Positions 2,433 through 24,900 of a stretch of 25,000 nt of DNA are shown here, piece after piece. Under the pieces are notes generated by a model. That model was not told the origin of the DNA and searched no databases. It was given only the letters and a program-made list of their open reading frames with translations. Every line of letters starts with the position of its first letter. The stretch's first letter is position 1. Both the position numbers and the translations under genes were made by a program. The stretch lies in assembly GCA_018398765.1 (NCBI GenBank), contig JAHBMJ010000434.1:1-25000 (forward strand), in the 5' to 3' direction. This DNA is from Chromera velia. Taxonomy: Eukaryota > Sar > Chromeraceae.

Positions 2433-3113
2433 TTGAACCTTGAACCTTTTCCTAGCACTATTTCTTCTTTTTTAGAAATGGCAAGCGTAGTGGCAGGCCA
2501 GCCAATATTCAGGCTGACTGAACTTATAATTGGGAGAATGGGGGGAGAGCGTCTTCCCCGTCAGTTGTTGTTTGGGCATCTCCAAGGAGAGCGCCCCCTT
2601 GGTCGACCCCTCCTTCGTTGGAGCGACTGCGTCCTCTCTGATTTCCGCCTTCTGGAAATCAATGAGGCCGAGTGGCAGACACTTGCCTCTCATAGAGGCA
2701 GGTGGAGGGCGTTAATTCAAGATGGGGTGAAAAAGGTAGAGGAGAGAGCAGCGGAGGAAAAGGAAAAGAAAAGGGAAGTGAGAAAGGGGCAGAGAGATGG
2801 AGATGCGAAGTGTGAGGCATGTGGACGAACGTTTTCCACCCCCCGGGGGCTTCGCATTCACACAAGCAAAGCACATAAGGACCTCGCCCCCAGACAGCCA
2901 GAGCAGCCGAAGAAGGCAGTCAAAGAAAAGAAGGGAAGCTGGGTTCAGGGCTGTCAGGTGAAGGAAATTCTTAGGAAGTACAAGCAGGGAAGAGGATGGC
3001 GTTATGAGGTGGCATGGCATGGCTGGCAGTCAACATCACATGAAGCAGCCTCGCTCATGCGCAAGCACGCCCTGCCAGAAGTGGAAGAGTTTGAGAAAAA
3101 ATGCAGCTGTTAA
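2433..3113 (+). CDS. LINE ORF2 C-terminal fragment with C2H2 finger and chromodomain-like tail
   Basis: 226 codons remain, with no true start since the 5' part is missing; TTG at 2433 is only the first usable codon and ATG at 2478 is also in frame. Visible parts, in fragment numbering, are: residues about 35-95, the conserved LINE C-terminal block (RLPRQLLFG, GRPLLRWSDC, RGRWRALI); about 98-120, a Lys/Glu-rich coiled stretch; about 127-148, a C2H2 zinc finger of pattern C-x2-C-x12-H-x4-H (CEACGRTF ... HTSKAH); about 170-222, a segment resembling a chromodomain (VKEILRKY, RYEVAWHGW, then LPEVEEFEKK). The finger is expected to bind nucleic acid and the chromo-like tail may guide insertion to marked chromatin. 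The second aromatic position of the chromodomain (the W of TWEP) is not obvious, so that call is weaker than the LINE call. Confidence 0.75.
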   Translation: MNLEPFPSTISSFLEMASVVAGQPIFRLTELIIGRMGGERLPRQLLFGHLQGERPLGRPLLRWSDCVLSDFRLLEINEAEWQTLASHRGRWRALIQDGVKKVEERAAEEKEKKREVRKGQRDGDAKCEACGRTFSTPRGLRIHTSKAHKDLAPRQPEQPKKAVKEKKGSWVQGCQVKEILRKYKQGRGWRYEVAWHGWQSTSHEAASLMRKHALPEVEEFEKKCSC

Positions 3114-3471: not shown

Positions 3472-3858
3472 CTATAACCCTGTCCTTGCCCCCTTCTGTA
3501 AGCTCTCGGAGGGTCTGGACAGGACGGCTTCCCCATCCCCATCGGGGGCCTTTTTTTGTTGAACTTCTTCTCCTTGGACAGTCACTCTTGCTTGTGCGGC
3601 TAAGCGCTCAGCTGCCATGGCGATGTCCGTAGCGGCTGAGAGTGCTTTGTCCTCTGGCCCGACGGGTTGTTTAGGAGCATTCTGTGTAGACGATGTGGGC
3701 TCAAAGGGGTTGTTCCTCCCACCTGGCGCTGGAGCAGGGTTCAGTTCCTGAGACTGCTTTGTGGTTGGGCCTTCTGCTGCCTTGGCCTCCGTGGCTTGCA
3801 TGGGTGGCACGGGGGGTCGCAGAGGAGGCCTCTCCTCTTGTTCCTCTGTTGGCTGCAT
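3472..3858 (-). CDS. In-frame continuation of the protease cytoplasmic tail (possible last exon)
   Basis: After the in-frame TGA at 3871-3873, the same reading frame stays open for about 130 codons, to a TAG at 3472-3474. The composition (Pro, Gln, Glu, Ala; words such as RPPLRPPVPPMQATEAK and RNNPFEPTSS) resembles the tail just before the TGA and does not look like random sequence. A 51-nt GT...AG segment runs from GTAATC after the Arg-Pro codons to CATGCAG before Pro-Thr-Glu-Glu. It contains the TGA, is a multiple of three and ends in the TGCAG acceptor favoured by this gene. If it is spliced, the protein would be about 117 residues longer. The other introns I measured here are mostly 170-480 nt, so 51 nt would be an outlier. 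The alternative is that TGA is the true stop and this is 3' UTR. Confidence 0.4.
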   Translation of the reverse strand: MQPTEEQEERPPLRPPVPPMQATEAKAAEGPTTKQSQELNPAPAPGGRNNPFEPTSSTQNAPKQPVGPEDKALSAATDIAMAAERLAAQARVTVQGEEVQQKKAPDGDGEAVLSRPSESLQKGARTGL

Positions 3859-3870
3859 GGGGTGGTGGGA

Positions 3871-5131
3871 TCAGGGGGGGTAGGACGGGGGTGTGGTGAT
3901 TACAGGTCGGGGGGGAGGAGCTGCCGGCGTTGATTCTGGGACGTAGTCGATAGAAAATGGATTTGAGGACTTGCCGTGCTCAGGGAAAAGCGGGGGCAGG
4001 GAGCCTCCTCTGTGCCTTGCACTTCTTCCCCTCCCCCTTCGAATGCGGTTGGTCGAAGCAGAACGTTTCCATGCCGATCCGAATGGGCCTCGAACGAGGA
4101 GAGCGGTGTGCGCATCTGGAAGACCAGGGAAGGCCTTTGGACTGCGGCCGTATGCGGTCGGGGACAGGGGAGCTGCCCCAACGGACTGGAAGTGCGCAGC
4201 TCCAGATTGAGAGATCAGAGGTGAACCTGGGAGGTACACGGCTGGTGCTGTGTGTACAGATTGGAAGGGAGATGCAAATTCAAGTTGAGGTGGGGGGACT
4301 GGGACTGGAGGGGGAACGGAAACGCTCCCCTGCGGATAGGCAGATAGATTCTCTGTGGGGGATCCGATCACCAGGGGGGAGGTCGGGCCTGTTGCTTGTG
4401 CGTCAGTTGTTGGTAGAAGGACTGCATCCCCCCCTGTTACATTCTCTGTCTGCTCACCCTCCTGAATTTTGACTTCCTCCACTTGTGCTTCTTCATTCTG
4501 CTCCCCCCCTTCATCTTCTTCGTCTCTTTCATCAACGTCCTCATCCTCTTCCTCTTCATCTTCGTCCTCCTCCTCATCTTCCTCGTCTTCGTCTTCATCC
4601 TCCTCGCTTCCGTCCTCTTCGTCCTCTTCTGCGTCCTCATCTTCGTCTGCGTCTTCGTCTTCCTCCAAATCTTCTTTCGATCCTGTGTGGTCCGTGGCTT
4701 TGTCGAACGACCCTTTCTTCTCCGCTTTTGCCGTGTCTTTGCCCCCCTCCTTTTCTTCTTCTGCTGCCGGACCGCCGACCCCAACCCCCGCCCCCCCAGT
4801 CTCTGCCGCCACTCCCCGATTCCGACGGCGGCACCAACACCAAATCCCCACCCCGACACCAACCGCCACGGCCAGCCCCACAAACCCGAATGTGAGACCA
4901 GTCGCCAGACAACTCATCTGAATGGACCCACAGGTATCACCGCTGTCTCCTGACTGCTCTTCCTCTTGAGGTGCTGCTGTTGTGGTCGTTTCAGCAGGAG
5001 CTGGTGTCGTCGCGCTGTCCTCGTTGTTGTTCTCTCCTGTGTCCCCTCCTGTGTCTGGCTGCGGATCTGATGGGGTGACTGCGTAGTAAGTTTGGCCTTG
5101 GAGGGATGCGAAGTCGGTCAGATGGTTGCAG
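3871..5131 (-). other. Exon 34: canonical GPS 2, stalk, transmembrane helix and acidic tail
   Basis: The exon opens with [10 protein letters not shown] (residues about 1676-1684), an intact GPS. Cleavage is expected between Leu1679 and Thr1680. A 55-residue Pro/Thr/Glu stalk follows, then a TM helix at about 1750-1775 ([19 protein letters not shown]) with CRRRN on its cytoplasmic side, indicating type I orientation. The tail has about 70 residues almost all Asp/Glu (coded by 4468-4677) and then a Pro/Ser-rich region with [15 protein letters not shown]. Cleavage would leave the ectodomain held to the membrane stub without a covalent bond. The frame stops at TGA 3871-3873; see the separate entry for a possible extension. 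Confidence 0.88.
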
Positions 5132-8100
5132 CTGCAGAAATGATATGAGCAATCATCAACTCGTTTTTAAACTGACAAATGATTGCAAATGGGATCAGCC
5201 AAAGAATCCTAAAATTCGCCTCTCTCTGTCTTTTCTTTCGAAAAGCAAAGAAGGGAAGGCGCAATGAAATGAACAAGATTCCACTCTTCAGACCATCTGT
5301 CCGTCTGTATACTTGAGGGACGGGGCGACGTGTGTATTTATGTGTGTATGTATGAAGATGTATGTGCATGTATGCAGGTCTATGTATGTATGTATGCGTG
5401 TAGGTCTGCGCCTTCTGAACGTGGACTGCCTGCCAAAGTGATTGGATGTTACATTCTTCGTCTCTGAAGATCTGTTTCACTTCACCTCTTCTTCCGCCCG
5501 ATTGCTCTTGCCAGACCTGCACTTGTACGCGTCTTGGTTCTCGTTTGTGAGGCGTGAGGGGAAGAAAAAACAGACAGACAAACACGCACCTGCAAGCGTA
5601 TGTGGGTCGATCGGAGCTCGAGAGGGTCCACGGGTCCGTCCCCTTGCCCCCCGAGGTCCACCATGTAGAGGGGAAGGAGGCAGACACAGCGCTGCAACCA
5701 GTGGAGGACCAGCGACTTGTGGTGCGATCAAAGAATGTGCACGAGAGCGTCGTCCAGTCTCCGGAAGGCACAAAGACAACTTGAACCTGCCCAGTGCTCT
5801 GGAGACTCCAAGTCAGGTCTGCCCACTTTTGGGTTTGGCTAGCCATCAAGGTCAGCAGAGTGGCGGGGATGGGAAGGGTGATGTTGGCAGTGAAGGAGGA
5901 GAAGGATGCCGTGGCACCGCAAGCGTGGACCTCGACAGACACCATCGGACCTGTCGATGACCCTCCAGAGCTGTCGACTTGGGAGAGGTACTCTTGCTCA
6001 ACGTAGGGATTCAACTGCGTTTCGACTATGCTCACAACGAGGTCACTGCAGGACCCCGAGCTGGACGTACCCTCCACCACCGCACTAGAGAGCCCAGAAG
6101 AGGACGTCATCGACACGCCTCCGCTAGCGGAGAAGGACGATGAAGTGAAGCGCTGCGAGGCGAGGGCAAGCTTGTACGGCCATGTCGCGTCGGTTGGGCC
6201 AAAGCTCTGCAGGTCATTGGTGGAGTCCTTGGGGGATTCTGCATCGAGGATGGCTGAGAGAAGATTTCTCATGCTCATCTGGGAGGTCTCAAGGGTTTCC
6301 TCGTCTGCCTGTCTGGACGTTCCTATCAACGAAGCAACCCCGTCAGAGCTCACTGACACGTCGTTCTGGGCGACTGCGTACCGCAGCACCTCTGTGGCAT
6401 TGGTCACTACAGCAGCGAGCGTCGTTGCTGCAGTTGCGGGATGGAGGGACGAAACGCCTGCAGCTGTCTGTGCTGTCGAAGAAGAGTTCAGAGAGGTGGA
6501 CACAAACGTCGCGGCATTGAAAGCGGCAGTCGCCACCTCGTTCAGCCGCAGTCCGAGTTCCTGCGCGCTGCTGATGCTTTTCTGTTCGGCCAGCCCAACC
6601 TGCAGGAAGGATGGCCATCACAAGAGAGAGAGAAGGAAAAGTGAAGTGAAGCGCAGATCATTCGCAGCAGAGGAGAAGAGACCGAAGAGCCAGATAAGGG
6701 GGAAAACCTCCCGCATCAAAATTCAAACGCTGCAATGAAGCACTACTTGTTTCAATGGGATGTACGGCACCGACCTGTTGAGCAGCCGCGGCAAGGAAGT
6801 CAGAGATCGAGGACGCCGCAGTGGTGGCAGCAACCGCCGAGTCTGTCTGCTGTCTGGCGTCTGTCAGAACAGCGTCTGAGCCCCCATCTCGCATTGCAGT
6901 AGATGCTTGGATCAACACCGTCTCCACCTGCATGCACACACAAAGTCAAAGTCGAAGGGAAACATCCACGCTCAACGTGAATGGGGCCAAGAGACGATGC
7001 TGGGATTCAGTCAATCCTGTCATGATCACAACAGATGCTTTGTCCATCCCTCTGCCTGCCTGTCATACTTTTTTGGGCCAGCTGGACTTCCTTGTTTCTT
7101 TTTCCTCTACTCTGACTTCCTACAGTCTCTCTCTCTCTCTCTCTGTATATTTTTTGCTGCTACTGTACTGACGCACGCACCAGTTGTCTGGCCTCCGTCT
7201 CGTTTGTGGAGGATCCGCTGGCTTCTTCGGCTGCATCGATGACACCCCTCACTCCCCTCAGCATCTCGTCCAGCGGGGCAGTGCCAGAGAGGTTCTTCGC
7301 ATCGTCCACAACACGCTCGAGACTCTTGGCGCTGCATGATGTTCCTGCATGCAGACAAAGTAAGGGAGTTCGATCAAGCCTCTTTCTCTTCCTCAAGAGA
7401 GAGAGAGAGAGAGAGAGAGTGAGACCACGGGGAGCCACTTTAAGCTCAAGAAGGAGAGAGAGAGAAACAACCTGACTAATGCCTTCTCACTTAAGCAAAA
7501 AGCCGGCACTTTCTTGACTTCTTGGATCAACCTCATCTTCACTCACACGCCCCCCTGCCTGCCTTCCTGCCCGAAAAAAAAAAAGGCATGCAGGGACTGA
7601 CCGTTCCCCTCGAATCCGGGATTGCACACACAGACACCGTCAGAGCACCACGCACGGGGACTACAGGGATCCGAGCAGTTTGTTGGAGTGGCTGCATGCA
7701 TGCGTGCAGGATACGAATACAAGATAAACTCAAGTACAAGCCCCACGTAGATTTATGTGAGGTAGGATGGATGAGGAAGGAAGGACACACCACTGCACAA
7801 TTAACAAGCTGTCACGCATCAAGTAGGGACAATTTGCCGCACAACAACGAGAAGAACCTGGATGGGTGATGCTATTTAAGAACAAGGAGGGGAATCCATC
7901 AATCAGTGAATTAAGATAATTAATTCAGAGACCAACTCACTGCCGTTGTTTGACGCCTCCACGAAGGGGCCGTAGAGGACAGAGTAGAAGTCCCCCACAC
8001 GGTTACAGCTGCACGCATTCGGATTCACAAACAGAAATCCCGAAGGAACACGACAGAGAGATGAGCATGGACATAGATCGATATTGATAGATGGAGAGAA

Positions 8101-10756
8101 TGCGCGGACCCACATTGCTACCGAGAGAGAACAAAATGACATCCCAATTGCAAAGTGCTCACTTTTCCAGGCAGCAGAACCGACTGATCTGAAGCAATGA
8201 AGGAACGACAAGAAAATCAAGAAGTCACTTGCATGATGTGCCTTGGCGCAGCATGGAACCATTCTCCACACAGTCTTTCGAGCATTTGCCACATTTCAAC
8301 ATTTTCCATGCATGCATGCCTTGCTAGTTCATGAAACCTCTCTTGTATTACCTGCAGCTCAGATGTGGCAGAGAGCTCCGGCTCTGTGTCCACAGATCTA
8401 CAGGCTCCCCTGCCTCCCACCAAGACACCGGAAACCCACTCGTAAGAACGGTGCAGCCATCAGATGACCAGACCTGCTGAGTGCTGTCAAAGCGCACGCA
8501 CATGGCCTCTGCAGTGGCCTCGAGTTCGTTGTTGCCCCCTCTGTTGGCTGGCAGGACAATGTGCATTCTTCCTGCACTGGTGATCGTCGCGTTGACATCT
8601 TCTGCTTTGGCGGTGTGGGTTGCCAGTGCGGAGAGGAAACCCTGAGGCAGTGCGAGCTGCACGCTCACATTCACATCGGAGGTCTCCACCTGCATCCCAC
8701 AGGACCGGAGAGCGACACCAAAAGAGATGCCGGCACTCGCAGAGGTCCACAGAGGATCGTTGGAGGGGACTGCGGGCTGGAGGTATGGGGTGTCTGTGAA
8801 GGGGTTGAGGTTGGACTCCAGAACATTCGCAAACACTGGGTCTGCCTGCGGACCGGAGCAGTTGGAGGTTACGGGGGCGAACGACACGACCTGAACATGG
8901 GCAGAAACAACACCCCCTGCACCCTCAAAAGTCAGACCACTGCTGCTCAAAAGATCGGCCCCCGTGACTCGTTGGCCCAGCATCGCGAAGGGGAAGGACT
9001 TGGCTGATGCGTTCTGGATTCCGTCGTGAATGGAAACTTGGGAGAGGGATGAGTTGTCTGAGAGAACGGCCAAGTATGCATTCAAAAGAAGGGAAGATTC
9101 GTTGATCGCCTGTAAGGACATTTGCTCGGTCGATTGATTTCCAGCATTGAAACTTGTCAGGCCGTCGGACTGTGCCTGAGGGTCAAACTGGGCGAATGCG
9201 ACGGGCAGAGAATACTGTGCGTCGTTGATGGCGATGACAAGGGCCGATGCGTTGGCTGGGAAGCGTTCTGACACAGGTTGGGGGTAAGCGTTTTTGGAGA
9301 GGAAACTGTCGGCACCAGCTGCCGACTGCGCTGGAGAAGCCGAGACAGCTGCCCACTGGGAGACAGAAGCGGAGGCCCCAAAAGGAGACGACGACGAAGA
9401 TACGAGGGATGTGCCAACGCTGCCACTCCCTAGCGCAAGTCTGTCAGCGAGTGCCCCCTGCAAACACCCACCATATTGTGTTCATGAGTGAAAGGAATTC
9501 TCTCATTCCCTCTGCACAGCATTTTGCTTCTCTTTGCCTTCGCGATGCGGAGCCATTCACGCGGGGTGGGTGACGCTTTCTCGGATAAGTATGAAAACAA
9601 TACGAATCATCACCTTTTCATTGCGGGACTCTGTCAGAAATTTCTTCCTTCTAGCTGTCGAGTGCTGTGTTGTGTTGTGTCGTGCTGACCTGAGCCCTCT
9701 GGATGGCGAGGAAAGTCCCAATCGAGTTGGAGGCTGCTGTCACCTTCTCGCTGTTGGATCCCAACGCGTTTGCTTCCTCCAGCAACGCGCCTGAGCCTCC
9801 TGAGGCCATCGCAGCGGCAGTAACACCGATCAAGTCGGCGACCTGCAGAGAGAAGAAGTGGCCAAGGACGTCAAAGAGATTCAAGATCTATTTCCTTTTC
9901 ATACCAGCACCTCCTTCCAAAAAACTGACCATGCACCATGTACCATACACCTTCACTTCCATGATCCCACATGCACCTTTCAGATGTTTGTTGTGCTTGT
10001 GACGAGGGAGGGAAAGAAAGTATCCTTCCTGACTTGAGTCTTCACTTTGGTATTGCAAGCAAACTTCTACTCATGCACTCATCCACTTCCACTCTGTCTG
10101 TCTGTCTATCCCACTAGAGGGAGGTTCTAAGAGTCCGCCTTCCGGCAGGCAGCTCTCTCTGGATGGGCATGCTCACCTGTGCCTTCGCAGCGTCGTCAGC
10201 CCCGCTCTCGGTCTGCGTCTCTGCAGCTTGGAGGAGAGCGTCTACATCTTGCAGCCTGGAAGCAATGGGCGCACTGGAGGAAATGTTGCGAGCGTCCGAC
10301 ACTACGTCTTCTAGAGGAGCGGGGTCGCAAGAAACAGATCCTGCAAGCACGCCTCAGAAGTCATGCACACAGGAAGTCAAAGATGACGGAAAGAAATGAT
10401 GAGTGGCCGGCCAGGCTTCTCTCTCGATCTCTGATGGGCAGACAGTACGCTGCACGTAGAACAGGTCTTGCAAGCCCATCGACGCCCTCAACAAACAGTC
10501 AAGAGAGAGTCTTGGACCCTGCCCTGGACGCATGGATGGATGGGTGGGTGGCTGGATGGATGGATGGGTGGCTGGATGGATGGACTGACCGTCACCTCGA
10601 TACCCAGGTTGGCACTCGCACTGCCCGTCTCGACACTCTGCGTTCTGGACACAGGCCGCACAGGGGTCAGCTGCATGCATGGTCGAATGAAGCAGGTCCA
10701 GAAGGAAGCAGAAAGAATTGTTACAGGAACAAGTCAAGAGCTGGAGCAAGAGGCGT

Positions 10757-10789
<33 letters not shown>

Positions 10790-13700
10790 GACAAGCGAGT
10801 CCGTTCTACACATCTGCAAAGATCGCTCAAGCAACTGCTTCTCTGGCAGGGACTAATTGTGGCTCTTGATTCCGTTAAATCCTCAACAAGTCTCTTTTTT
10901 GTATACAAAGCCACACAGACCCTGATGCAGTTAAGAGCCCTCCCTTGTTCTTTCTTCATCCTTCGCGCTGACACACATGCAGGAAAATCTACTTACAGGT
11001 TGTGGTGGTTGTAGTGGTCGTTGTAATGTTTGCAGTAGTTGTCGTTGTGGTGGTGGTAGTTGTGACGGTAGTGGTCGTGCTAGTCGTCGTGTTCAATACC
11101 GTCGTCGTGGTTGTGGTCGTCGTGTTGGCTGTTGTGGTGGTGGTGGTGGTTGTGGTGGTCACATTAGTGGTTGTAGTCGTGGTCGTGGTCGTGGTCGTGG
11201 TTGTAGTAGTGGCATTTGTCGTCGTGGTGGTTGTGGTTGCAACCGTGGTGGTTGTTGTTGTATTGACAACGCTGCCCGGGCACGTAAAGTTCGCGCCTGC
11301 ACGCGAATCATGAGGAGGGGTGAAAATGGGAACGAATAGATATGAAGGTCCAGCAGTGCATCTCAAAAAGTTCAACCTGCATGAAAAAATGGTTGTTTGC
11401 CCGCAATAGTCGAAGAAGAACAAAGCAAGCACGGAACGCACAGAGCCTGTAAAGATTGATTCTGCTGATTCAGATTGACGGACGCACCAGATCGTGAAGA
11501 AGCCTCGGAGATTGCCAGTGTCACTGCGGCCTGCAGAGAGAGACGCCAGAGGGGCATTTGTGAAGACAAAAGACAGTGGTCCTTAGCAGACTGCGAAGAC
11601 TGGAAGAGTGCAAGGGATTGAGGGACAAGGTTGAAGAGAGAGACAGAGCACAAGAGACGCTGTCTGCAGGTGGTGTGCTGCATCTTTTCCCTTAATTGGA
11701 ATTTCAGAGTCTTCTCAAAACGCATGCATGCAGAGAGAGAAAAAGAAAGAAAAGAAAAGGGACCGCTAGATAACCGACGGACGTCCAGGTCCAGATTGCC
11801 CGATGTCTTCAGGTATCCGGTGAGAGACGCCACAGAACGTTTCTGAAAGAAGCATGCATGGGGGGCAGCATGAGAGTTCACAAAACATTCTTCGTCAATC
11901 CGCTTTCTGGAGAACCAACACCACAGGCACTGTTATGCGCCTGGTTTGTGAATTGATTTTCTGTCTGCTGGCTCTTTGCCCGTGCTTTGCTGCAACCCTC
12001 TGCGGCCCTCCAGGCTTCCATTCATACGCTCGTCAAACCTTTCTTCCTCCTCTCATGTCCGCGTACACCTTCTCACTTTGTGCTGGCTTTCCCGGCCCCT
12101 GTCAGAGTCCCCTCTTCAATCCCCACGTCTCTCTGCCTGGGGAACAGTCTCTCCACTCCCGCCCTTTCATTTCACTCTTTCCCCTTCTCTGCATGTGTCT
12201 GTGTCTCTGCTCCTCTGCAGCTCCTCTGATCGATCAGCTGATGGATGCCTCTCTACGGATGCATCGCATCAAGTTGGTGTAAGGAAGGAAGAAGGCACAA
12301 ACAAATGCATGCACTGACCGACCGACCGATGTTTCAATGAGGCTCCGAAGATCTGTGCTGGAGAAGCCTGACCAGCTGCCCCCCCCTTCCCTGCAGTGAT
12401 GCAGGTCGATCGAGCAATGTGCACAAAAGGAGTGGGGCATCTTTTCCTTGTTCCTACAAACGCGATCATCGGGCAGAAATTGGAGAGAAAGGAATGCAAA
12501 CGGACAACATGCATCGACATGCGGATCCGCGGAGAGCACGTATGAAAGTCGAATCAATAGCAGAAACAAGCAACAAATATGCAGGGGCACTACGCACAAC
12601 TCTGGAGCCACGAACCTTCCCGCGGCCTTTCCGATTGCGATGAGCATGGCGGCAGCGCCTGACACATGAGGTGTTGCCATGGAGGTACCCTGCATTGTGT
12701 GTGAGTATTTTGACATGCACAACAGATTTCACTCGTCGAAACCAGGAGTGATTGTGCTTGTGTAGCATCTTGTACCGTGTGATTCCTCACTGCCACCGAC
12801 GTGTTCCAGCAAGAATAACTTTCATTGACCCATGCATTTGAGCCTCAAATACAGAGAGGCGTCCGTACTGTGCCATTTCAAGAAGGCCGTGCACGTATTA
12901 ATAAAATGCACAGCGGAGCTCTCCAGAATCAGGACAGACTCAAGGGCCCGTCGCTCCCTTTATTTTGCCCTCAGCTGCCTTGAGGCACTGACTCTTCATC
13001 TGTGTGTGCTGAAAAGGGACTGTTGGAGAAAAGTGTCAATGCATGGAACGTCTCTCTGATTGACTGACGTCCAAAATCAGGTAGAAGTTGTCGTTGTAGA
13101 TCGACAGGGACGCGATGTCGACGCCTGAAGAGAAGAGGGGAGGGGAGGGGAGGGAGCAAGGGTTTCTTTCAACACAGGCAAACGTGGAGAGAGAGAGAGT
13201 CCCAGAGTCGAATTGCAGTTTTTCCTTTTGAAGAATCGACGCACTAATTTGCTTGCAACAGAACACCTCACCAGCAGCGGATCCAACTACACATGCATAG
13301 GCACGGGCTTGATTACCTGGGGCTGCGATGTCGACGCTTGTGGGTCCAAAATTCGAGAAGGACGCGAGCGACCCTGCAGGGAGTCGAATTAAAGAATCAA
13401 TCAGCCTGGAATCAACCGTTTGATCTATCCATTGGCTCTCCCCCTCCCTTCCCGGACTGAGCAAGTGCTCACAAAGCCCTCCAGGTCGGTCGTTCATTCG
13501 ATGTGATAATTCAATTCTCTGTTCTGTCAGAAGTTGAATTAAGTGATTGATGCCATGCAGTCTCGACATGCACATCGATGGGCGGCCGGATTAACAGCAA
13601 AAAAGAAATGAGAAGGGTGGGCAGACAGGTCAGAAGATCGAAGGAAAACGTGAACGGAAAAACGGACAGAACGAAAAAAAAAGACAAAACTACAGGCAGA

Positions 13701-16700
13701 CAGGCGAAAGGATGGAGCTGATACGAGGAGTGTATCTCGAGCACGTCGGCTTTCTTTGCGTACCGTCTCTCTGATTGGCAGCGACGGACATGACGTTCAC
13801 AACATCTTTCGCATAGTCTGCACAAACACACACACAAACACGTACACATGGACCAATCACAAAGAAAACTCCATCAACATCAAAATAACAGATGATCAAC
13901 GAGCGGATGGTCATGTGTTGGCGTATTAATTCAGCTCGATACGTGCATGTGCGTAAAGAATTGTGCCCACATTTCCTTCGGCAGCATGCAGGCCGAAGGA
14001 TGCACAGAGAGAAGGACGGAATCACTTAAGGGAAGTGTTCGAAGTCGAGCGCCCTCGCAGGTCATCAACAGAGTCACTTGATGCCCCCCCCTGCTTGTCC
14101 CCAGTCTATCTATGCATTCAGAGACTCCTGCATGTACCACATGACCCTCCATTTGTCTGAACTTCAACTGACTGACTGACTGACTGACTGACTGACTGAC
14201 TGACTGACTCACTGACTCACTGACTAACTGACTGACGCACACGAAGGGTAGAAAGGGGTCGTGTCTGTGTTCAGGCCTGAGTTGCCAGCAGCACAGACGT
14301 GCAGCAGATCTGCATGAAGGCAGGTACATGCGCCAGCATAAGAGCGTCACGCACTATTCGAGCAGCCGATTGCGGGCAATCAAAACAGCATCAAATATCA
14401 CTGATAATTTTGTTTGCTTTTTCAATTGGGAATCAAGACGATATCCACTAGGACTGAGAAAATCAGACTGTTGCACAATGCCTTTCAAACAAACAAACAA
14501 ACAAATGGATGAATCAACTGCCGAACCCACGCATGCCAAGACTCACTCACCCGACGTGTCGCTGAGGGCATTGAGGAGGGACGTGCTCCCCCCCGTCCCC
14601 CCCCAGCTGTTGGAGGTGATGTTCGCTCCTGCATACCGACACACAAGAGGAAAAAGCCCAATGTGTGTCGGTGACAGAATCACACAGAAGGCAAAGGAGA
14701 TTGGAAGGCGAGAGCAAGCAGAAAGACAAAAGAAAGAAATCGGCGGGTCCGCCCAAGATGCATTTTCTTTCGAACAGAATTCTTTTTCTGTATTAATATG
14801 TATGTATTAATATTAATATGTATTCTGTATGAAAGAAAAAGCAAGCAGAAAGACAAAAGAAAGAAATCGGAGGGTCCGCCCAAGAGGGAAAAGAGAGAAA
14901 GAACAACTGCAGGGAGGCAAGAAGAAAGAATCGATAAGAAGAGAAGAGAAGAGAAGAGAATGCAGCGAAGAAAAAGGACGTCTCGTCCAGAAATCCGGGT
15001 GAAATCCTCAGACACACTTCCCCTGAAACCACAATCACAGCGCTCTTTACACTTCCACAGGTTGCCTCGCTTCTGTTGTCGCAACGCTACTTTATTCATT
15101 TCTGTCTGATCCCCCCCCCCTTTCAAGTCCCCAGACGACTTTCATTTGTTGTCTCCTCTTACCCATCGTCGCTGCGTAGTTGATCGCTGCCACTGCACCA
15201 CTCGTGAAACCCTGCACGCAACACCAAAAGAAAGACGAACAGCAGGTTATACAGCGAATGATGGTGTAGAAGTGGCTGCCTGCTATAGAGAGATAGAAGT
15301 GCACTGCTTGAGGGTAAGTATCGGCACAAACATTTCCGCAGCGGTGGGCACACAATAAGTCAGAACAGTTGCTTCATCAGCCTCATTTCAGTTCTCTACT
15401 TATGCCGTCAACTCTTTTTGCATGCGTTTGTTTTCCCTTTTTCTGGTAATGCCTTCTGTCTCTCTTCTGACGCTCCAATACTTTTTCGCAAGTTGTTTTC
15501 CTACCAAAATGCGAATCCTGTCTGTCTGTCTGTCTGTGCGCTTCGATCCCTACGACATGAAACGCCCTGCAGGCACATGGAGTCAAGGGCGCAACTAAGC
15601 TGACCCCTGAAGATCCCTGAATTCTTTTTTCTGTTTTCTTTTTTTTCCTTTTTCTTTTCTTTTTTATTTTTTTTCTTTAAGCTGACCCCTGAAGATCCCA
15701 AGAACTTCAGTGCCATGATCTTGGCACCCCAAAAGACCCCTGCAGACAGGCAGAGTCACTCTTATGATAAACAAAAAGAGGTTCATGATTGAAACAGATT
15801 GGCGATTTTCAGATTGAAACAGCAGAGGAACAAACGGTCCGTCAAAAAGGCCACAGCATCATATCAGCTTCAATAATGCACTCATTCTCTGAAATGAAAG
15901 AAAAGCGACAATCCATTCATCAAAGCGGCCCTTCAGAATTTGAGTCGGAATACAGAAACCAAACAGTGCGAGTAGGAATGCAGAAACCAAACAGTGCACC
16001 CTGATGACCCACCAGCAACATTCACGGCGTTGTTGCCTTCTGCTGCCACAGTTCCTGTGAGCACAGCATCCATACATACATACAGGAGTACATAAATCAT
16101 TGCATCCACAGTAAAAAAAAAGGCGCTTAACTCCAGGAAAAAGATGGGAGGGAGATCCGATGATTGTCGAGGACAGGGCGAAAGGACAGGCCGCCCTTTG
16201 ATTGTCGAGATCGATGGCCGGTTTCCCAATTCACACTTAGAGAGAACCTCTCCAGAGAGTCAAGTCATTTCTTCAGACTTCTTTTCAAGAGCCCAGGCAG
16301 GAGGGCCTCTGCCTCTCGAACGGAAGTCTTCTTCTTCGGCAAGACACTTGGAAGATCCATCAAGGAGATTTCCTTCTTTCTTTCAACCTCCGCCTTCACG
16401 TACCTGCACAATGAGTCCCATGGTTGACTTCGTCGCTTGGATCCGCATCGTCTGCAGGCACATTCATGCGCATGGGTGGGAATGGAACAAGATTTGAGTC
16501 TTGCATGGTTTTTCTTTGGCATCTCAAAACAGATGAAATGAACAATGAAGCGTGAATGCACATTCACAACTTTGGTCTATCGAAACGGATCCTGCCGAGT
16601 GGAAATTTGGATCAGAGATCTTTGAAAGGAGTCAACGCAGACAGAGTTCTTTTCTTCCTATCTGCCTGAACCCCTCACTGCCTTTCACATTGTTCGCTTC

Positions 16701-19410
16701 CTTCCCACACATTGATCGGAGGAGGGCCAAACCATGTGCTGCTCTCAACAGACTAACCGTTAAGAAAATCGTATCCGTAGATGTCGTCTACGTAATTGTT
16801 CCCATCGTCATCGACACCCTGCATGCATCCATGCAGAAACACCGAGAGAGAGAGACCAGATCGAGGAAAGAACGACTTCCGCGGATGATTGAGTGAGTGA
16901 ATACATGCGGGCCTTCTAAGCTGCCAGAGGAGACCTGAACAAACTTGCGGTCAGCCTGAACGAAACTGGATCAAAACACACCAGTTGAAGCTGGCCAAAA
17001 AGGAGAATGCATGCCTGAGTGGATCGGTAACGGGATCTAGAAGCCACCGGCCATGAGATCAGAGGTGACCGCACTCGAGTGGCTGCACGCAGGCACTTGA
17101 AGTATAAGGAAACCTTCATAACGACTCTAGCTCGTCTCTAGACATATCGCCAGCTTCAAGATTTCCATTTTGGCAGGCCAATTCCGAAGGCTGAAGGAAG
17201 GCATAATGAGGCAGAGGCACTCTGACATGCAGACTGACGGCAACTCCGTTCAGTTCAGCATCGTTAGTCCACATACGGCCAGCGTCGAGCAGATCCGGAT
17301 TCTGCCAGCGCACGCCTGCACCCAATGAAGGCAAAATGAGGGAGGAGTTCACACACTCACAGGACTAGATCACAAATACAAAGAACACTGGTTGCTTCGG
17401 CCATCGTGGATAAGAGAGAAGCTGTCTTGTCTGGTCAAAACCCCCATACATGACTCTTGGAGGCGATAGGGAGGTTGCATGAAGGAGGGCCGTATGTGTG
17501 CGTGGGGTGTGCGGATGTATGTACAACATCTGCAGGGAGGTCCGCAGTTTGTGCTTAATTGTACTACTGGAATATCAACAGCATGCAGCAGCGCAGGTCA
17601 GCATCATGGTTTCAAATGCACAGCTGACACACCGGTATCTATAACCGCGACGACGGGAGTGTCGGAGTCCACACCCAGCCCTGCTGGAGGGAAACAGCCC
17701 CAGGCAGTTGGAGCTGCAGACAGGAAGGCAGCATACCCGGGGCATGACTATGAGTACATCTAAGTCCAGATATACTTGTGGATGAACCTCACCGAGCTGC
17801 CAGAATTCACAGCATTCTGTTTTCTGGAGACAAGGAAAAAGGGGACAACTCAGAATATCGTCTTCTCTTGACGACAAGAAATCTCCTAGGAAATCTTCTA
17901 AAACAAGGCGCTATACTACGTGAGTGGAAAGAGAGGAGATCAGTAGATGTGCACAGAACGTACCAAAGAATAGATGACGAGTGGAAGCAGTTGGGTAAAG
18001 GAAGCAAACGGCTCTGAGGAAAGTGACGAGAAAGCCGATAGGCGCTTCTTCAAGCAATCATACGCAAGCCTTCGGAGGGACCTCTGCGCGTTGTCCTTTC
18101 ACACTGGCTGTCGAGTTCACGCAAGCACACAATTAATTCTGCCTGCAAGAATCAACCACACAGCTCCCCAACCAGCCAACCAACCGTTGATGATGCCGGT
18201 CGGGTTTGCAGACTCCGCAAGGGCCCACAGCTGGCTGTAGTACGTGTCGTCTGGGACGTAATCTGTTGGAAGGAGAGGGGGGAGTGAAACCAAAACAGAA
18301 GCACAACAAACTCAGTAATCTTTCGCACACTCCCGATCGACCAATTTTCCTAGAAGGGTCTCTTCCTCTTCGCATGCGATCAACAAAAGGGAGCGGAAGG
18401 AACAGCTGTGAAAAAGATTATCGGAGAAGGCCAAGCAAGAATATCTGATACGAGGAAACTGCACCATTCTGGCAGACTGCGGAAAAATGGGGCGAGTCCA
18501 TTTTCACAAGGCCGACTTAAAATGAAGCAGCCAAAAAGTCTGGGAAAGAGAAAAAATGAGCGATCTTTGTGAGCACGTATCCAAAAAGGGGGGCAGAGAG
18601 GACGCAAGGCCATCGAGAGGGGGAGTACGCACCTGTCTGAGTCATATTCATGACGAAGTCCTCCGACACAGACACCACCTGCAGCCAAAAGAAGGAGAGG
18701 AGTGTGAGGCCAGAGCAAAGGAAGGAAAGGCTCCACGTCAGCAGAGTTGTATGTCGTTCGTCTGTCTGTCTGTCTGTCTGTCTGTCTGTGTTTGTGTTTG
18801 TGTAAGACTTTATTTTTTTCAACGGATGAAGGTCCCGCCCTCACAGACTCACCGAGGGCGATCCCTGCAGCGACCTGAGGATTGTGTTTGCCGAGGCTGC
18901 ACACATTTTGTAGCAAGAGGACAGGTCAGCTCGAGATCAGTCCACAAAAAAGCAAACGACGGGGAAATTAGATAGAAGAGCGAGTGTGAAACAAGCAAGA
19001 AAGGCAAGTCAATCCCCACAAATCACACTTGAAGCTGTGCCTATTCAACGGTAGGAAGGAATCTCCATACTGACACCGAAAAAGATCCAAGAACGGCTCA
19101 GTGGGGGCTGGGCGGATAGAAAAAAAGAGAGCCCCTTGAGGGTGACACCGTGGAATTGGTTTGAGAGGGCCTACTCGCCCACGGCAGCGGATAGACAAGC
19201 GGGATACCGCGAGAGCGCATGGTGGAAAGAAGAAGGTGATTGTGTTTTCCGCATCATGTCGCTCGCACCTTCTGAGTCAGTCTCGACGATGTCCAGGTTC
19301 ACGACGTGGAGACGCTGCACGCTCACAGACGCACCCACAGGAGTCACTCCAGCCAGCTCTGGGGGGGGAGCGACGTTGTCGAAAATGTGCCCGTCGAAGA
19401 ATCTGCACAC

Positions 19411-19493
<83 letters not shown>

Positions 19494-21104
19494 CCCTTTC
19501 CAGTGAGCGGTTCCGGATTAGACTTCAAAGACACCCTGCCGAGTGACAGAATTCCTTCCTTCCTTCCTTCCTTCCAAATTCTGCAAAGGTAACAAAATGT
19601 GTTCTTCCTGCAGTCACCGTTTCAGCAAAGTTTCGCAGCAGCAGATGAGCAGGAGATGATTAAGGCCTCAACCCGTAGCCGTTGTGTGTGATAAGGTATA
19701 GTTGTCAGTCTAGTACCCCACCCCAGACAGCCTCAAACGGCCTTACCTGTCAACGAAAGCGCGCGCAGTTCTCTCAGGTCCCCCGGTCCGTCTTCCGGGG
19801 ACTGCAGGGACTCACACACTCATGTTTACGCAGAATGTGTATGCACACACAACACACACACGCACGGGGGGACGCGCGTACTCACACAAACACACATGCA
19901 TGTATACATACAGACACACGGGGGTGGATGGCTTTTGTCAGATGACTATAAGAAATTCAATGCAGGGACGCAGGGGCACATCACTTTGTCAATCTGCCGA
20001 TGGCTGACCAGCAGACCAGGTGCCAGGGAGTATTTTGAAATGAGCAGACGGATGGACGGAGGAGAAGAGAGATGTATTCGTGACGCAGTGATACACACAG
20101 TAGATCACAGAAGGAACGGATGAGCAAGTGAGTGGATGGAAGCGTGAATGAGAGACCGCATCCCTTGGAAAAGTCGCAAAGGAGGTCTGGATCATCGATT
20201 TCTGGCTGATTGGATGCCTCACTATGAAATGAAGTATTGGAAGAAGAAAAGGCATTCACAGAGTGGTGCAGAAAAGAAATCTTTTGATTCCCCAGCCGGA
20301 ATAAGAGAGCTTCGAGCCTGCATTCTGTTTTGCAGGTAAGGAAACAAGTGTACATTGAGCGGGCCACTTGCGTGCATTGAGAAGTGCTGAGCCAGCTGCC
20401 CGTCCAGAAAGAGAAGTGCTGCGCCAGCTGCCCGTCCAGAAAGAAAGATGCATGTGTGGAAACGTTCGCACATGTGAGGGATTCGCACTAATCTGACTGG
20501 ATAAAATGTATCATGCGCGATGTGCGGGCCTCCAAAGGTGCAGCATGCAGGCCTGGTTGGCTGGAGACTCTTGCAACGGCCAACCAGAGGATCCGTTCCC
20601 TGCATACATGCATATCGTCTGACTCGATGACTGACTGACTGACATGAGGGTTCCCACTCTTCCCAGAGGTCCCGGAAGTTCCGGTGAGCGTCTCCATTCG
20701 TCGAACGGTCTGCAAGGACATCCACAGGATGCACACAAACAGAGCAGAGGATCGAAACGTGCGTGCCATTCTTTTGCAACGTAGCTTGAGCCAGCTTTCC
20801 GCCCCAGCAACTGCACGCCTGTGGCAGGACTGACCAAGGGTTTGTGGGGGGAATGGAGAAAGTCCCAACTGCACTCTCTTGGTAGCAGCAGCTGTGGAAC
20901 GGGAGGACCTGCAGCAGTCCAAAGATCCGGATAGAGGGGTAGAGGGTCGTAAGGAGTGGGGCCCTGGGTATGCAGGAAGAGTCGCACGCATGCATGTCGA
21001 GGGATGACCTACCACTCGACCAATAGGCGTTTGCTTCCCCCCGCGTTGCAGATGAAGGGCGCGTACGAGAAAATCATGAGAACAATCAGAAAGAGAGACC
21101 ACAT
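3871..21104 (-). CDS. Membrane-anchored subtilisin-like protease with two EGF-GAIN/GPS modules (34 exons)
   Basis: I chained 34 exons by splice sites and phase (minus strand): 21104-21013, 20963-20644, 19801-19747, 19402-19269, 18896-18853, 18678-18633, 18262-18185, 17713-17633, 17315-17239, 16818-16758, 16451-16404, 16054-16013, 15739-15687, 15211-15163, 14628-14551, 14309-14241, 13817-13764, 13373-13317, 13124-13069, 12689-12616, 12390-12327, 11842-11783, 11530-11488, 11296-10997, 10670-10590, 10340-10177, 9842-9690, 9457-8352, 8008-7941, 7691-7602, 7344-7181, 6927-6775, 6599-5590, 5131-3871. The sum is 6285 nt, exactly 2094 codons plus a stop, and every junction agrees in phase. Order: signal peptide, I9-like propeptide, S8A catalytic domain, Thr-rich stalk, EGF, GAIN-like/GPS, EGF, GAIN-like/GPS, one TM helix, acidic tail inside the cell. 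The likely role is a secreted-pathway surface protease, with substrate unknown. The catalytic and downstream exons are secure. Exon 2 and the 9/10 junction (GTCAGT donor versus GTTGCC six bases earlier) are less certain. Confidence 0.85.
5590..6599 (-). other. Exon 33: GAIN-like beta domain 2
   Basis: This 1010-nt exon encodes a Ser/Thr/Val-rich domain matching module 1 in landmarks: [14 protein letters not shown] (module 1: [14 protein letters not shown]), then LSCTFFD ... [24 protein letters not shown] (module 1: [16 protein letters not shown]) and final PTYAC. It ends in phase 2 at GTGCGTG, the same place in the GPS as exon 28. It is the beta-sandwich part that in known GAIN domains holds the GPS strand. 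Confidence 0.8.
6775..7691 (-). other. Exons 30-32: EGF-like domain 2 and helical segment of module 2
   Basis: Exon 30 (7691-7602) gives [27 protein letters not shown] and exon 31 supplies the sixth Cys (TSC). Exon 31 (7344-7181, 164 nt) and exon 32 (6927-6775, 153 nt) encode Ala-rich helices ([26 protein letters not shown] ... [11 protein letters not shown]). Their lengths and phases equal those of exons 26 and 27, showing that the EGF-helix-GAIN unit was duplicated as a block. Confidence 0.88.
7941..8008 (-). other. Exon 29: GPS motif 1, cleavage residues lost
   Basis: The exon completes the GPS as [12 protein letters not shown]. The canonical form is C-N-H-L-T-x-F, with self-cleavage between Leu and Thr. 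Here His-Leu-Thr is replaced by Arg-Val-Gly, so no nucleophile is present and self-cleavage is not expected. The disulphide cysteines and the Asp-Phe after the motif are kept, so the fold may persist as a structural unit. Confidence 0.85.
8352..9842 (-). other. Exons 27-28: helical segment and GAIN-like beta domain 1
   Basis: Exon 27 (153 nt) encodes an Ala-rich helix segment ([16 protein letters not shown] ... [11 protein letters not shown]). Exon 28 (1106 nt) encodes a long Ser/Ala/Val-rich beta region with several N-glycosylation sequons. It ends with the first half of a GPS motif: CVRFD ... VWSSDGC, then LPHLSC at the exon end (phase 2 donor GTAATA). The order of parts (helical subdomain, beta subdomain, C...W..DGC...C.CN) is that of GAIN domains in adhesion GPCRs and polycystins. 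Overall GAIN assignment rests on this pattern and on similarity to module 2, not on a profile search. Confidence 0.78.
10177..10670 (-). other. Exons 25-26: EGF-like domain 1 and first helical exon of module 1
   Basis: Six cysteines of an EGF domain are spread over the junction: DPC-AAC-x4[17 protein letters not shown] (exon 25, 10670-10590) and SVSC at the start of exon 26 (10340-10177). Exon 26 then gives about 50 Ala/Glu/Gln-rich helical residues ([22 protein letters not shown]). Exon 26 is 164 nt, exactly as long as exon 31 in the second module. The intron between 25 and 26 carries a GGAT-type minisatellite. Confidence 0.88.
10530..10585. repeat. GGAT/GGGT minisatellite in intron
   Basis: Repeated GGATGGATGGGTGGCT-like units lie directly downstream (minus strand) of the EGF1 exon donor. 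Non-coding. Confidence 0.85.
10758..10787. repeat. GA dinucleotide microsatellite
   Basis: About 14 AG units in the intron between the Thr-rich exon and EGF1. A similar run lies at 7395-7419 between exons 30 and 31. Confidence 0.9.
10997..11296 (-). other. Exon 24: threonine-rich mucin-like stalk
   Basis: The exon is exactly 300 nt and encodes [10 protein letters not shown] followed by about 80 residues that are almost all Thr, broken by NA, NV, AN and LN pairs. Asn-x-Thr sequons recur (NTT, NAT, NVT, NIT). The codons ACA, ACC, ACG and ACT are mixed, so this is not just a frozen microsatellite; the protein composition appears to be kept. The expected role is a rigid, heavily O- and N-glycosylated spacer that lifts the catalytic domain off the rest of the protein. 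The opposite strand shows a Val-rich frame, which is a shadow. Confidence 0.9.
14167..14236. repeat. ACTG tetranucleotide microsatellite
   Basis: About 17 near-perfect ACTG units with a few variants lie immediately inside the donor of protease exon 16 (intron side). Because the repeat on the minus strand reads GTCAGTCAGT, it offers many cryptic GTCAGT donors next to the real one. Confidence 0.9.
14713..14884. repeat. Element locus A: 82-bp insert between 45-bp direct repeats (intron)
   Basis: A 45-bp sequence starting AGCAAGCAGAAAGAC and ending GGTCCGCCCAAG occurs at 14713-14757 and again at 14840-14884, with one mismatch. Between them, 14758-14839 is an AT-rich near-palindrome. Its left end has TTTTCTTTCGAACAGAATTC and its right end reads, on the opposite strand, TTTTCTTTCATACAGAATAC. 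It lies in the intron between protease exons 14 and 15. Confidence 0.88.
15596..15699. repeat. Element locus E: 60-bp insert between 22-bp direct repeats across an exon end
   Basis: The 22-bp TAAGCTGACCCCTGAAGATCCC occurs at 15596-15617 and at 15678-15699 (given here as TAAGCTGACCCC plus TGAAGATCCC). The right copy holds the last 13 coding bases and the donor of protease exon 13; the left copy duplicates both inside the intron. The insert 15618-15677 starts TGAATTCTTTTTTCTG and is otherwise nearly pure pyrimidine on the plus strand. It shares GAATTCTTTTT with loci A and D but lacks the full CTTTCATACAGAAT core. Confidence 0.75.
15948..15997. repeat. 28-bp-period tandem duplication in intron
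   Basis: GAATACAGAAACCAAACAG at 15948 recurs as GAATGCAGAAACCAAACAG at 15976, just beyond the donor of protease exon 12. No insert separates the copies, unlike the element loci. Confidence 0.8.
18760..18789. repeat. GTCT microsatellite
   Basis: About seven TCTG units lie in the intron between protease exons 5 and 6. Confidence 0.9.
19413..19490. repeat. Compound AC/AG dinucleotide microsatellite
   Basis: About 20 AC units run straight into about 15 AG units. On the minus strand this is a pyrimidine run followed by TG repeats next to the acceptor of protease exon 4, so length changes here could affect that splice site. Confidence 0.95.
20372..20445. repeat. About 33-bp tandem duplication
   Basis: AGAAGTGCTGAGCCAGCTGC followed by CCGTCCAGAAAG is repeated at once with one change (GAGCC to GCGCC). 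It lies in the long intron between protease exons 2 and 3 as modelled. Confidence 0.8.
21013..21104 (-). other. Exon 1: start codon and signal peptide
   Basis: ATG at 21104-21102 opens a hydrophobic leader, [21 protein letters not shown], written here as [14 protein letters not shown] plus APFICNA. It has a plausible signal-peptidase site after Asn-Ala (residues 20-21). The exon ends at a GTAGGT donor in phase 2, and the next acceptor (CCCAG at about 20966-20964) restores a frame that reaches the propeptide exons in the right phase. I chose this start over an internal ATG at 20769 (also followed by a hydrophobic stretch) because that frame leaves exon 2 in a phase that does not match exon 3. 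Confidence 0.6.
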
Positions 21105-21930: not shown

Positions 21931-24900
21931 ATGGAGACGGCAGGGACTCATCGGGAGATTCCGGCCACTCTGATTGGCAAATGGAAGCTGGGGGACAGAA
22001 TCGGGAAGGGGGCTTTCGGGGAGGTCTTCAAGGTGATGCATGTGGACACTGGGGAGTTCGCGGCTGTCAAGCGCATCGAGTTACACAACATGACCGAAGA
22101 CCAGCTGAACAATATCATGGTGGAAATCAACCTGCTCAAGTCTCTCAATCACCCGAACATCGTCAAGTACCTGGAATCCATCCGGACTGAAGAGCACTTG
22201 AACATTATCCTGGAGTGAGTAAGTTGGAGGATGATGGACAAACTATCAGCCACTGCGCACCGTAGAAGCCGGCACTTCCCGTCCTTTCTTCTGTACCAAA
22301 ATCACTACACCTCTCCCCACTGTCCCCCAACTCCACACCCGTGTTTTGATGTCACACTTTTTAATTGCGAAGTGCCCCCGGTATCTTCTTCTTCAATCCC
22401 TCTCACGCGGCAATGATGCGGTTCGTCTATCGAACGGTTGCGTAATTTTCCTTCCTTGCATTGAAAGGCACCCCACACGTTTTCTCTCGATCTTCCCTTC
22501 TGTCCCGAGGACCGTGTGTGTTCGCTTTTTTCGTTTTCCTCTTCTCGTCCTTCATATGCACTCTCTGCCTGCTCCCGCATCTGTCTCGCAATGCAGATAC
22601 GTCGAGGCCGGGTCGGTTCGCGCTGTGCTGGACAAGTTCGGGGCGTTCCTAGAACCTCTAGCTGCCCACTACACCTTCCAGGTCGGCCCCTTTCGTTTTG
22701 CTTGCAGCAAGGGGACTGTCTCGATGCGCGAGGAAATGTGAATACCCTTCCAAGAATACAACAGAAGTTTTGTGAGTGAGCGATCTCTGTTTCTTCTTAT
22801 GTTGCTCTGTTGTGTGCGTGTGGGTGGATGGAAGGCCGCTCGCTCCATTTGCTCAGCTTCCGCGCAAGCGTTCAGGTGCACGGCGCCAAATAGATAGTCA
22901 GGTAGGCGCCGGGGTCAACACAGCCTCGGCCGGCGCAGAGCGAAGTGATAGGGTGGATCGCTGCCATGGGAGGCGACAAAACCAATGCGCCCCTTCCACA
23001 TCCTGAATCTGTGTATTCACCGCATGACGTGATCTCTCTCTCTGCAGGTCCTGGAAGGTTTGTGTTATCTGCACGGCCAGGGAGTGGTCCACAGAGCATG
23101 CGTTTACTTTCATACAGAATACTTTTCATACAGAATGAAATGCATGAATACCGGAATACAGAATACAGAAAGTAAGCGCATGCAGGTCCTGGAAGGTTTG
23201 TGTTATCTGCACGACCAGGGTGTGGTCCACAGAGACGTGAAGGGAGCGAACATCCTGACAACCAAGTCTGGACGGTGCAAGCTGGCAGACTTCGGTGTGG
23301 CACGAAACTTGGGGGAGACAGAGAAGGCCGAGTCGGTAGTGGGGACGCCCTACTGGATGGCTCCAGAGATCATCACAATGGATGCAATGTCGACTGGTGG
23401 GTGCGTTCACTTTCATACAGAATAAACGCATAACACGCATAAACGGATGGCTCCAGAGATCATCAGAAGGGATGCAATGTCGACTGGTGGGTGGGTGGGT
23501 GGGTGGGCGGGTCGATTTCTTTGCTTTTGCTCGCTTGAATTGGGTACCTCTTTCTTTTATGCATCGGATACAAATACAGTAAATACGGAGGGAGCCTGCA
23601 TGCAGGCGTGTAGGTCGGTCGGCCTGAAGAAGGACGGACACCTCAACTTTTCCTCCAGACCTGCTCACGTAGCTGTGTTGCTCTTGCTCGACGAAACATA
23701 CATCCATGCAGTCGATGAAGGAAGCTTGGTTGACTCGACACCCGTCCTTGCAGTCTACATGAGGAGAGCGACACTGTCTTTAAGGGACGAGAACGGATGA
23801 GAGGGAAAACATGAAAGGAAGACACAAAGTTCGGAAAGGAAAATCTCTGTCTGTCTGCCTGTGTTTGTGTGTGTGTGTGTGTGTGCAGGATGCGACGTGT
23901 GGTCGGTCGGGTGCACGGTGATTGAGATGATTACCCGAACCCCCCCCTACTGGGACCTCCCCCCCATGAATGCCCTCTTCCGCATCGTCCAGGACCCCCT
24001 CCCCCCCCTTCCTCCAGGCATCTCGGTGCATCTCACAGACTTCCTATGCAGGTGAGGAGAGGGAGTAGGAGGGAGGGATACGCGTGTTGCTTTCTCACAA
24101 CGGCAGTGTAGAGTGAAGCCTTGATCTTTCCAGTATGAAGTGTTCAACACTGGTGGTTCGGCATTCGCAATAGGCGTGTGCACAATCTCTGCATGTGCTT
24201 GGTGTATCTATCTGTGAGGAAAGTTGGTCGATCGAAAGTTTGTCAGCCCTCGTTCACACCCTCTGTCTGGATAATTCCGATACGCACCATGCATATGTAT
24301 ACATACAAAAAGAATTCTCTATGAAAGCAAATAAATGCACACACCCTCTGTCTGGATAATTCCGATACGCACCATGCATATGTATACATACAAAAAGAAT
24401 TCTGTATGAAAGCAAATAAATGCACACACCCTCTGTCTGGATAATTCCGATACGCACCAACCACTCATCATAGAAGGGGTTGCCGTTCTTTTCTCTGACT
24501 CCTTCCTGTCCTTTCATATACATGCAGGTGCTTCCAGAAAGACACCGCAATGAGGTCGACGGCAGCCCAGCTGATGGCGCACCCCTGGATCACAGGGCAC
24601 GTTGCGAACGCCTCGTCGGTCCGGAGTCGGCAGGGACGGGGGGAAGTGGCGGCAAGCAGAGGCGGGGGGGAAGGAGAGAGCTCTGCGGTGTTTGTCGAGG
24701 CTGCACGGATGTCTAGTGACGTGGACACGGACGAGCTGGATGGGAATCGTTCGATGGTGTCGGGAATTCAGAGTGAACCGGGGGCAACAGCTGTGGTCGA
24801 GAGTGAGAGTGTGTGGCAGGGGGTGGGGCTGCATGCTGAGAGAGGCGGCATGGTAGACGAAGGGGGAGGAGCGAGGAGGGAAGGGGGGGGAGCGCCTGCT

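Follow-up and report, generated by a model that had tools for sequence, protein, structure and literature searches.

The GAIN/GPS module has been studied as a receptor switch, mostly in animals. In adhesion GPCRs, cleavage at the GPS yields two pieces that are held together non-covalently, polycystin-1-like and REJ proteins also self-cleave, and the tripeptide at which the chain is cut is His-Leu/Ile-Ser/Thr, as described in the available portion of PMC13197933. GAIN and seven-transmembrane (7TM) domains are encoded by separate genes in diverse non-holozoans (available portion of PMC12716839), so that the presence of a GPS in an alveolate is not in itself new, and a brown-algal protein carrying both a GPS and REJ has been reported (PMC4700764, partial text). 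Woo et al. 2015 (PMC4501334) discussed extracellular proteins of chromerids, among them EGF and mucin-like ones, and neither 'GPS' nor 'subtilisin' occurs in the main text of that article. In our literature search, no report was found that joins GPS/GAIN (PF01825) with a subtilisin or subtilase (PF00082). Here we analyze a gene of Chromera velia whose sequence leads us to propose, with a probability of slightly under one half (about 0.48), that it encodes a type I surface protease mounted on a self-cleaving GPS tether and was assembled by joining a subtilase to a receptor end.

The gene is located in a window of 25,000 nucleotides, the whole stretch of DNA that was analyzed (contig C433 of a searched assembly with 4040 contigs and 177.8 Mb in total), where it occupies positions 3871..21104 of the minus strand; all coordinates below refer to this strand unless indicated otherwise. 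The model consists of 35 exons running from 21104 to 3871 and totalling 6105 nt, with 2034 codons followed by TGA, and its frame is open to this single stop. Introns measure 104 to 842 nt, all 34 have GT-AG borders with phases that are consistent along the chain, and 30 of the 34 acceptors end in TGCAG. Since the exon borders were picked by eye, the open frame is partly obtained by construction, and independent support for the exon chain is provided by the Pfam matches and by the module duplication described below. Intron phases and paralogues suggest that the chain is a single gene. The original prediction had placed a phase-consistent chain at exactly these positions, which is correct, and had divided it into 34 exons, which is not. 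The intact S8A triad, Thr-rich stalk, pair of EGF-GPS modules, transmembrane helix and acidic tail that it had read along this chain are all recovered here, whereas two working GPS sites and the GAIN fold are not.

Other features of the window flank this gene. A protein kinase gene lies head-to-head with it at approximately 21940-25000 on the plus strand, a fragment of which, read by eye, matches Pkinase with an E-value of 1.6e-54. On the opposite side, a 226-codon open frame (2433-3113, plus strand) contains a CxxC...H...H zinc-finger-like stretch and recalls, by eye, the end of a non-LTR retrotransposon; farther out, at 1016-1709, a tandem repeat of about 200 bases is present in three overlapping register copies that are 68-93% identical to the reference.

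The predicted protein begins with a putative signal peptide (residues 1-21, exon 1, 21042..21104), recognized by its hydropathy, with a value of 2.12 over 19 residues at residue 1 and a best 12-residue value of 2.69 for exon 1, and with a cleavage site read by eye. A prodomain-like region within exons 5-7 (18633..19402) looks, by eye, like the part that precedes the catalytic domain in the paralogous subtilases of contigs C3472 and C1928; a Pfam scan of residues 1-202 at E <= 10, which covers the prodomain-like stretch (before residue 170), gave no family match. The catalytic domain is spread over exons 9-23 (11783..17713) and matches Peptidase_S8 (PF00082) at residues 215-485 with an E-value of 3.4e-46. 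All catalytic residues are kept in their usual motifs, as aligned to structure 3vv3: the triad is formed by D222 in VIDTG (17639-17637), H280 in HGTH (16422-16420) and S441 in GTSMA (12683-12681), and N369 (14283-14281) is the oxyanion asparagine. This structure, deseasin MCP-01, is the closest solved one among the best 60 of 158 matching sequences (E 2.6e-53). When the S8 region was compared with the protein database, 6201 of 8000 scored candidates matched. The 120 long S8 relatives listed out of these 6201 are 33-51% identical to the query, and 98 of them carry PF22148, a fervidolysin-type prodomain. PF01825 is found in none of the 120, and wherever one of their names includes an organism, it is bacterial. 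The catalytic domain is separated from the remainder of the ectodomain by a mucin-like stalk in exon 25 (10997..11296), defined by composition, in which residues 519-619 are 72% threonine.

Beyond the stalk, the protein comprises two successive modules, each with an EGF-like unit, a GAIN-like region and a GPS. The EGF-like units (unit 1, exon 26, 10590..10670; unit 2, exon 31, 7602..7691) display six cysteines by eye when read together with the start of exons 27 and 32, respectively. By Pfam, EGF_Teneurin reaches 22.7 bits for the whole protein, slightly below its cut-off of 24.3, and unit 2 gives EGF_3 at E 0.027 together with other weak EGF matches, all below cut-off. GAIN-like region 1 (exons 27-29, 8352..10340) was delimited by its homology to module 2, and GAIN-like region 2 (exons 32-34, 5590..7344) by the resemblance of its profile to those of further GPS proteins from this genome. 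Module 1 (residues 620-1142) and module 2 (residues 1146-1637) are identical in 153 of 515 aligned columns (30%, E 2e-47). Their exons measure 81/90, 164/164, 153/153 and 1106/1010 nt (module 1/module 2), and five exons are entered in phases 1, 1, 0, 0 and 2, in the same order in both. From this identity and from the equal order and entry phases of the five exons, we conclude that the two modules are the product of one tandem duplication.

The two GPS copies differ at the cleavage tripeptide. GPS 2 matches the Pfam family at residues 1564-1625 (E 2.9e-7), with 31.3 bits in the whole chain and 27.7 in the module alone versus a cut-off of 22.5. It reads C-S-C-N-H-L-T-D-F, thereby retaining the cysteines and H-L-T, and the predicted cleavage motif N-H-L|T (residues 1617-1620) is encoded in exon 35 at 5116..5127. 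GPS 1, the end part of which lies in exon 30 (7941..8008), stays below the same cut-off (E 0.046, 14.7 bits) and is degenerate, since it reads C-S-C-N-R-V-G-D-F and has none of the three tripeptide residues. Because H-L-T occurs in GPS 2 only, at most one self-cleaving site is to be expected, the one adjoining the membrane. Two EGF-GAIN-like-GPS modules had originally been predicted: the homologous EGF-GPS pair stands, whereas its first GPS, with NRVG, does not qualify as intact. The profile comparison proposed at that time accordingly has a divided outcome, with Peptidase_S8 and GPS 2 above their cut-offs and GPS 1 and the EGF units below.

We refer to the modules as GAIN-like rather than GAIN because the evidence for the fold is indirect and comes from similarity around the GPS. 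Structure prediction, likewise proposed with the original prediction, did not demonstrate a GAIN fold: for exon 34, modelled by AlphaFold from a two-row alignment of window sequence only (exons 34 and 29), the pLDDT was 34.8, and in this low-trust model helices precede strands, the order expected of GAIN. A profile built from eight GPS regions of the genome, two rows of which originate from the present gene and two of which contain one wrong first letter, retrieved exclusively adhesion GPCRs from the PDB at E <= 10, 23 sequences in total, and the matches cover essentially the GPS alone (profile positions 351-422 of 429). An hhalign comparison of both modules and the relative on contig C1 with four further GPS proteins encoded in this genome aligned 91 columns (probability 95.8%), which start roughly 80 residues before the GPS and run through it. 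With the two window exons alone the probability was 49% (E 2e-4), and after removal of the GPS a weak match of 33 columns was obtained, with a probability of 4% and a score of 26.0, above the maximum of 18.1 in 40 column shuffles.

GPS 2 is followed by a single predicted transmembrane helix (residues 1693-1711, 4843..4899, mean hydropathy 2.06), the one hydrophobic segment above 1.3 in this part of the chain. Pfam analysis of residues 1-1728 at E <= 1 detected no 7TM family and no REJ or PLAT match, and with its one hydrophobic segment after the GPS the protein has neither the seven membrane spans of an adhesion GPCR nor the multiple spans of polycystin-1-like proteins. The protein contains 28 N-glycosylation sequons, 26 of which precede the transmembrane helix. 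The putative cytoplasmic tail (3874..4842) is 323 residues long, is rich in acidic residues (73 Asp/Glu and 27 Lys/Arg) and, in the translation, carries one NPF sequence. Its frame remains open past the TGA at 3873-3871 for another 132 codons up to a TAG (3472..3870), and the true C-terminus may lie within this stretch. The in-frame codon score of 3870-3472 is 0.108 per codon, versus -0.171 and 0.003 in the other frames, with 0.194 for exon 35, and GC content, 0.59 up to the second stop at 3472, is 0.38 beyond it. It is to be noted that 109 of 5000 base shuffles of the post-TGA stretch also stay open, and the frame is therefore suggestive only. A second NPF sequence and a tail-like composition are seen in 3870-3472.

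Both halves of the protein have relatives in the same genome. A profile search of the genome contigs detected at least 18 GPS matches on 18 contigs, C433 included, GPS 1 of the present gene being outside this count. Sixteen of the 18 exceed the family cut-off, one of them only with its neighbours in frame, and GPS 2 of C433 falls below it in this contig search because an intron splits the motif. The H-L-S/T tripeptide is kept in 16 of the 18, GPS 2 included, the exceptions being C455 (HFT) and C1755 (RFA), and all but one of the 18 open frames, which may extend into introns, have a segment with a mean hydropathy of at least 2.0 after the GPS. A subtilase query likewise matched at least 18 contigs including C433, which is the only contig common to the two lists, both of them lower bounds. 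No S8 was found by tblastn (E <= 0.01) in the 6.9-9.9 kb around each of the 17 other GPS matches, a span that could miss a more distant S8, since on C433 the S8 sits 7-13 kb from GPS 2. In the protein database, searches with residues 1020-1640 (E <= 0.001) and with the module alignment (E <= 1) yielded no homologue among the 8000 candidates scored in each case.

The nearest subtilase paralogue, on C3850, is 58% identical over 120 residues, and in its case a single open frame (approximately 611-1705 of the stretch examined) runs from the last part of the catalytic domain through a Thr stalk into additional sequence. By eye, this stalk is followed by two copies of a Cys/Trp-rich unit, and Pfam gave a sub-threshold Mucin match alone for the frame. 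On C1928 the subtilase has a likely transmembrane segment, by eye, and on C732 EGF units occur in a nearby frame (EGF_CA, E 2e-26). These three subtilases thus share with the C433 gene a modular S8 architecture, with a Thr stalk, a transmembrane segment and EGF units respectively, but their contigs, unlike C433, have no GPS match. Conversely, the GAIN-GPS gene that comes closest, located on C1 (E 1e-16, with 31% identity across 165 residues), combines a GPS with one hydrophobic segment that precedes a long open frame, and with upstream EGF-like frames recognized by eye (Pfam found no match in one upstream frame of 504 residues), but differs from the C433 gene in that no subtilase was detected within 9.9 kb (tblastn, E <= 0.01). 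A second close GAIN-GPS relative is located at C3172:60065-60592, within an open frame of 1096 residues. In this company the C433 gene looks like one more domain shuffle, this time with a GPS end.

According to the reading that we favor, the prodomain would be removed in the secretory pathway to give an active subtilisin, and the membrane-proximal GAIN-like domain would cleave itself at H1618-L1619|T1620 during biosynthesis. The enzyme part, up to residue 1619, would then stay non-covalently on the C-terminal piece 1620-2034, made up of the tethering strand, the transmembrane helix and the tail, and the distal module, with its GPS devoid of H-L-T, would remain uncleaved and act as a spacer or in binding. 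The protease could be freed by pulling or by a bound ligand; alternatively, the tail could report its loss. As this genome also encodes separate relatives of each half, the gene may have originated when a bacterial-type subtilase with a Thr stalk was joined to an EGF-GAIN-GPS-TM receptor end. By analogy with known GPS proteins, release through GPS cleavage is plausible, and release by force or ligand, as well as a role as a sheddase, would follow the example of adhesion GPCRs and polycystins. We put forward, tentatively, that through GPS self-cleavage a membrane-bound subtilisin comes to be retained by non-covalent contacts, from which shear or ligand pulls it free, with the upstream module as an uncleavable extension. 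This explanation is favored by the open chain, the S8 and GPS 2 scores above cut-off, the conserved triad and NHLT, the H-L-S/T in 16 of the 18 genomic GPS matches, the adhesion-GPCR matches in the PDB, the profile similarity upstream of the GPS, the Thr stalk on C3850 and the EGF-like frames on C1. We count against it the low pLDDT of the structure model, the near-restriction of the PDB matches to the GPS, the weakness of the profile match once the GPS is removed, the open frame with in-frame ATGs in intron 25 (see below) and the length of the GPS 2 match, 62 residues versus at most 51 for the genome GPS matches.

The data fit an uncleaved stalk almost as well as a self-cleaving tether. The protease might be permanently anchored as one protein, GPS 2 being uncleaved or its cleavage irrelevant and the EGF-GAIN-like modules serving to position the enzyme, as could be imagined from the degenerate GPS 1 of the same protein, from the GPS on C1755 that also lacks H-L-T, and from the fact that many, not all, adhesion GPCRs cleave (available portion of PMC13197933). 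Preservation of the cysteines and H-L-T in GPS 2, together with its score above the Pfam cut-off, speaks against this arrangement, which we consider rather unlikely. A primarily signalling role of the GPS end, with the subtilase used for binding or for local processing such as cutting its own or a neighbouring ectodomain, would agree with the long acidic cytoplasmic tail and with the C1 relative, also long-tailed after its transmembrane segment and with no subtilase within 9.9 kb; nevertheless, all four catalytic residues are kept and other subtilases of the genome adjoin likely transmembrane or EGF units, as if anchoring of the enzyme were recurrent, and we regard this role as very improbable.

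The occurrence of relatives of each half apart from each other in the genome would also be expected if the chain consisted of two neighbouring genes, the first for a secreted subtilase whose end lies past the Thr stalk, the second for an EGF-GAIN-GPS-TM protein with its start in intron 25 or close to it. Intron 25 (10996-10671) is indeed open throughout in the frame of exon 26, up to 10995, and in-frame ATGs are present at 10959 and 10680. However, neither ATG is followed by a clear signal peptide, the best 12-residue hydropathies being 1.65 and 0.54 versus 2.69 for exon 1, and part of this open frame is a CT repeat. A hydrophobic frame starting from the ATG at 10813 is out of frame with exon 26, and the GT sites that it offers past the hydrophobic stretch leave 60 and 54 nt up to exon 26, whereas the shortest intron measures 104 nt. 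In addition, the donor that follows the stalk exon 25 is a good one (gtaagt) and its phase agrees with that of exon 26, and in the sister gene on C3850 the Thr stalk is internal, with more sequence after it in the same frame. We consequently judge a division into two genes to be improbable. An alternative start in intron 25, or retention of this intron, is possible.

If the self-cleaving tether that we prefer is real, alveolates, here a photosynthetic relative of apicomplexans, would have used GAIN/GPS to hold, and perhaps to release, an enzyme, and the gating by GAIN tethers could extend to the activity of an enzyme, beyond animals and beyond receptor signalling. The gene would also offer a simple test system, in which protease activity in the medium is the readout of tether release. 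Independently of this, the genome, with its at least 18 GPS matches, constitutes a resource on GPS diversity outside animals.

Compared with described systems, the C433 protein resembles adhesion GPCRs in having an H-L-T GPS adjoining the membrane, and all 23 PDB matches of the profile belong to these receptors. They have seven transmembrane segments, whereas the C433 protein has one, together with an active-looking protease ectodomain and two GAIN-like modules. Polycystin-1 and the sea urchin REJ proteins show, as is the case here, a GPS within a non-GPCR surface protein, but the C433 protein differs from them in having no REJ or PLAT match (E <= 1) and only one transmembrane segment. With bacterial-type S8A subtilases, namely deseasin MCP-01 and the long S8 proteins, it has the catalytic domain in common, and it is distinguished from them by its membrane anchor and GPS modules. 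An S8 protease on a GPS tether, as deduced from this gene, would thus be a new combination of known parts.
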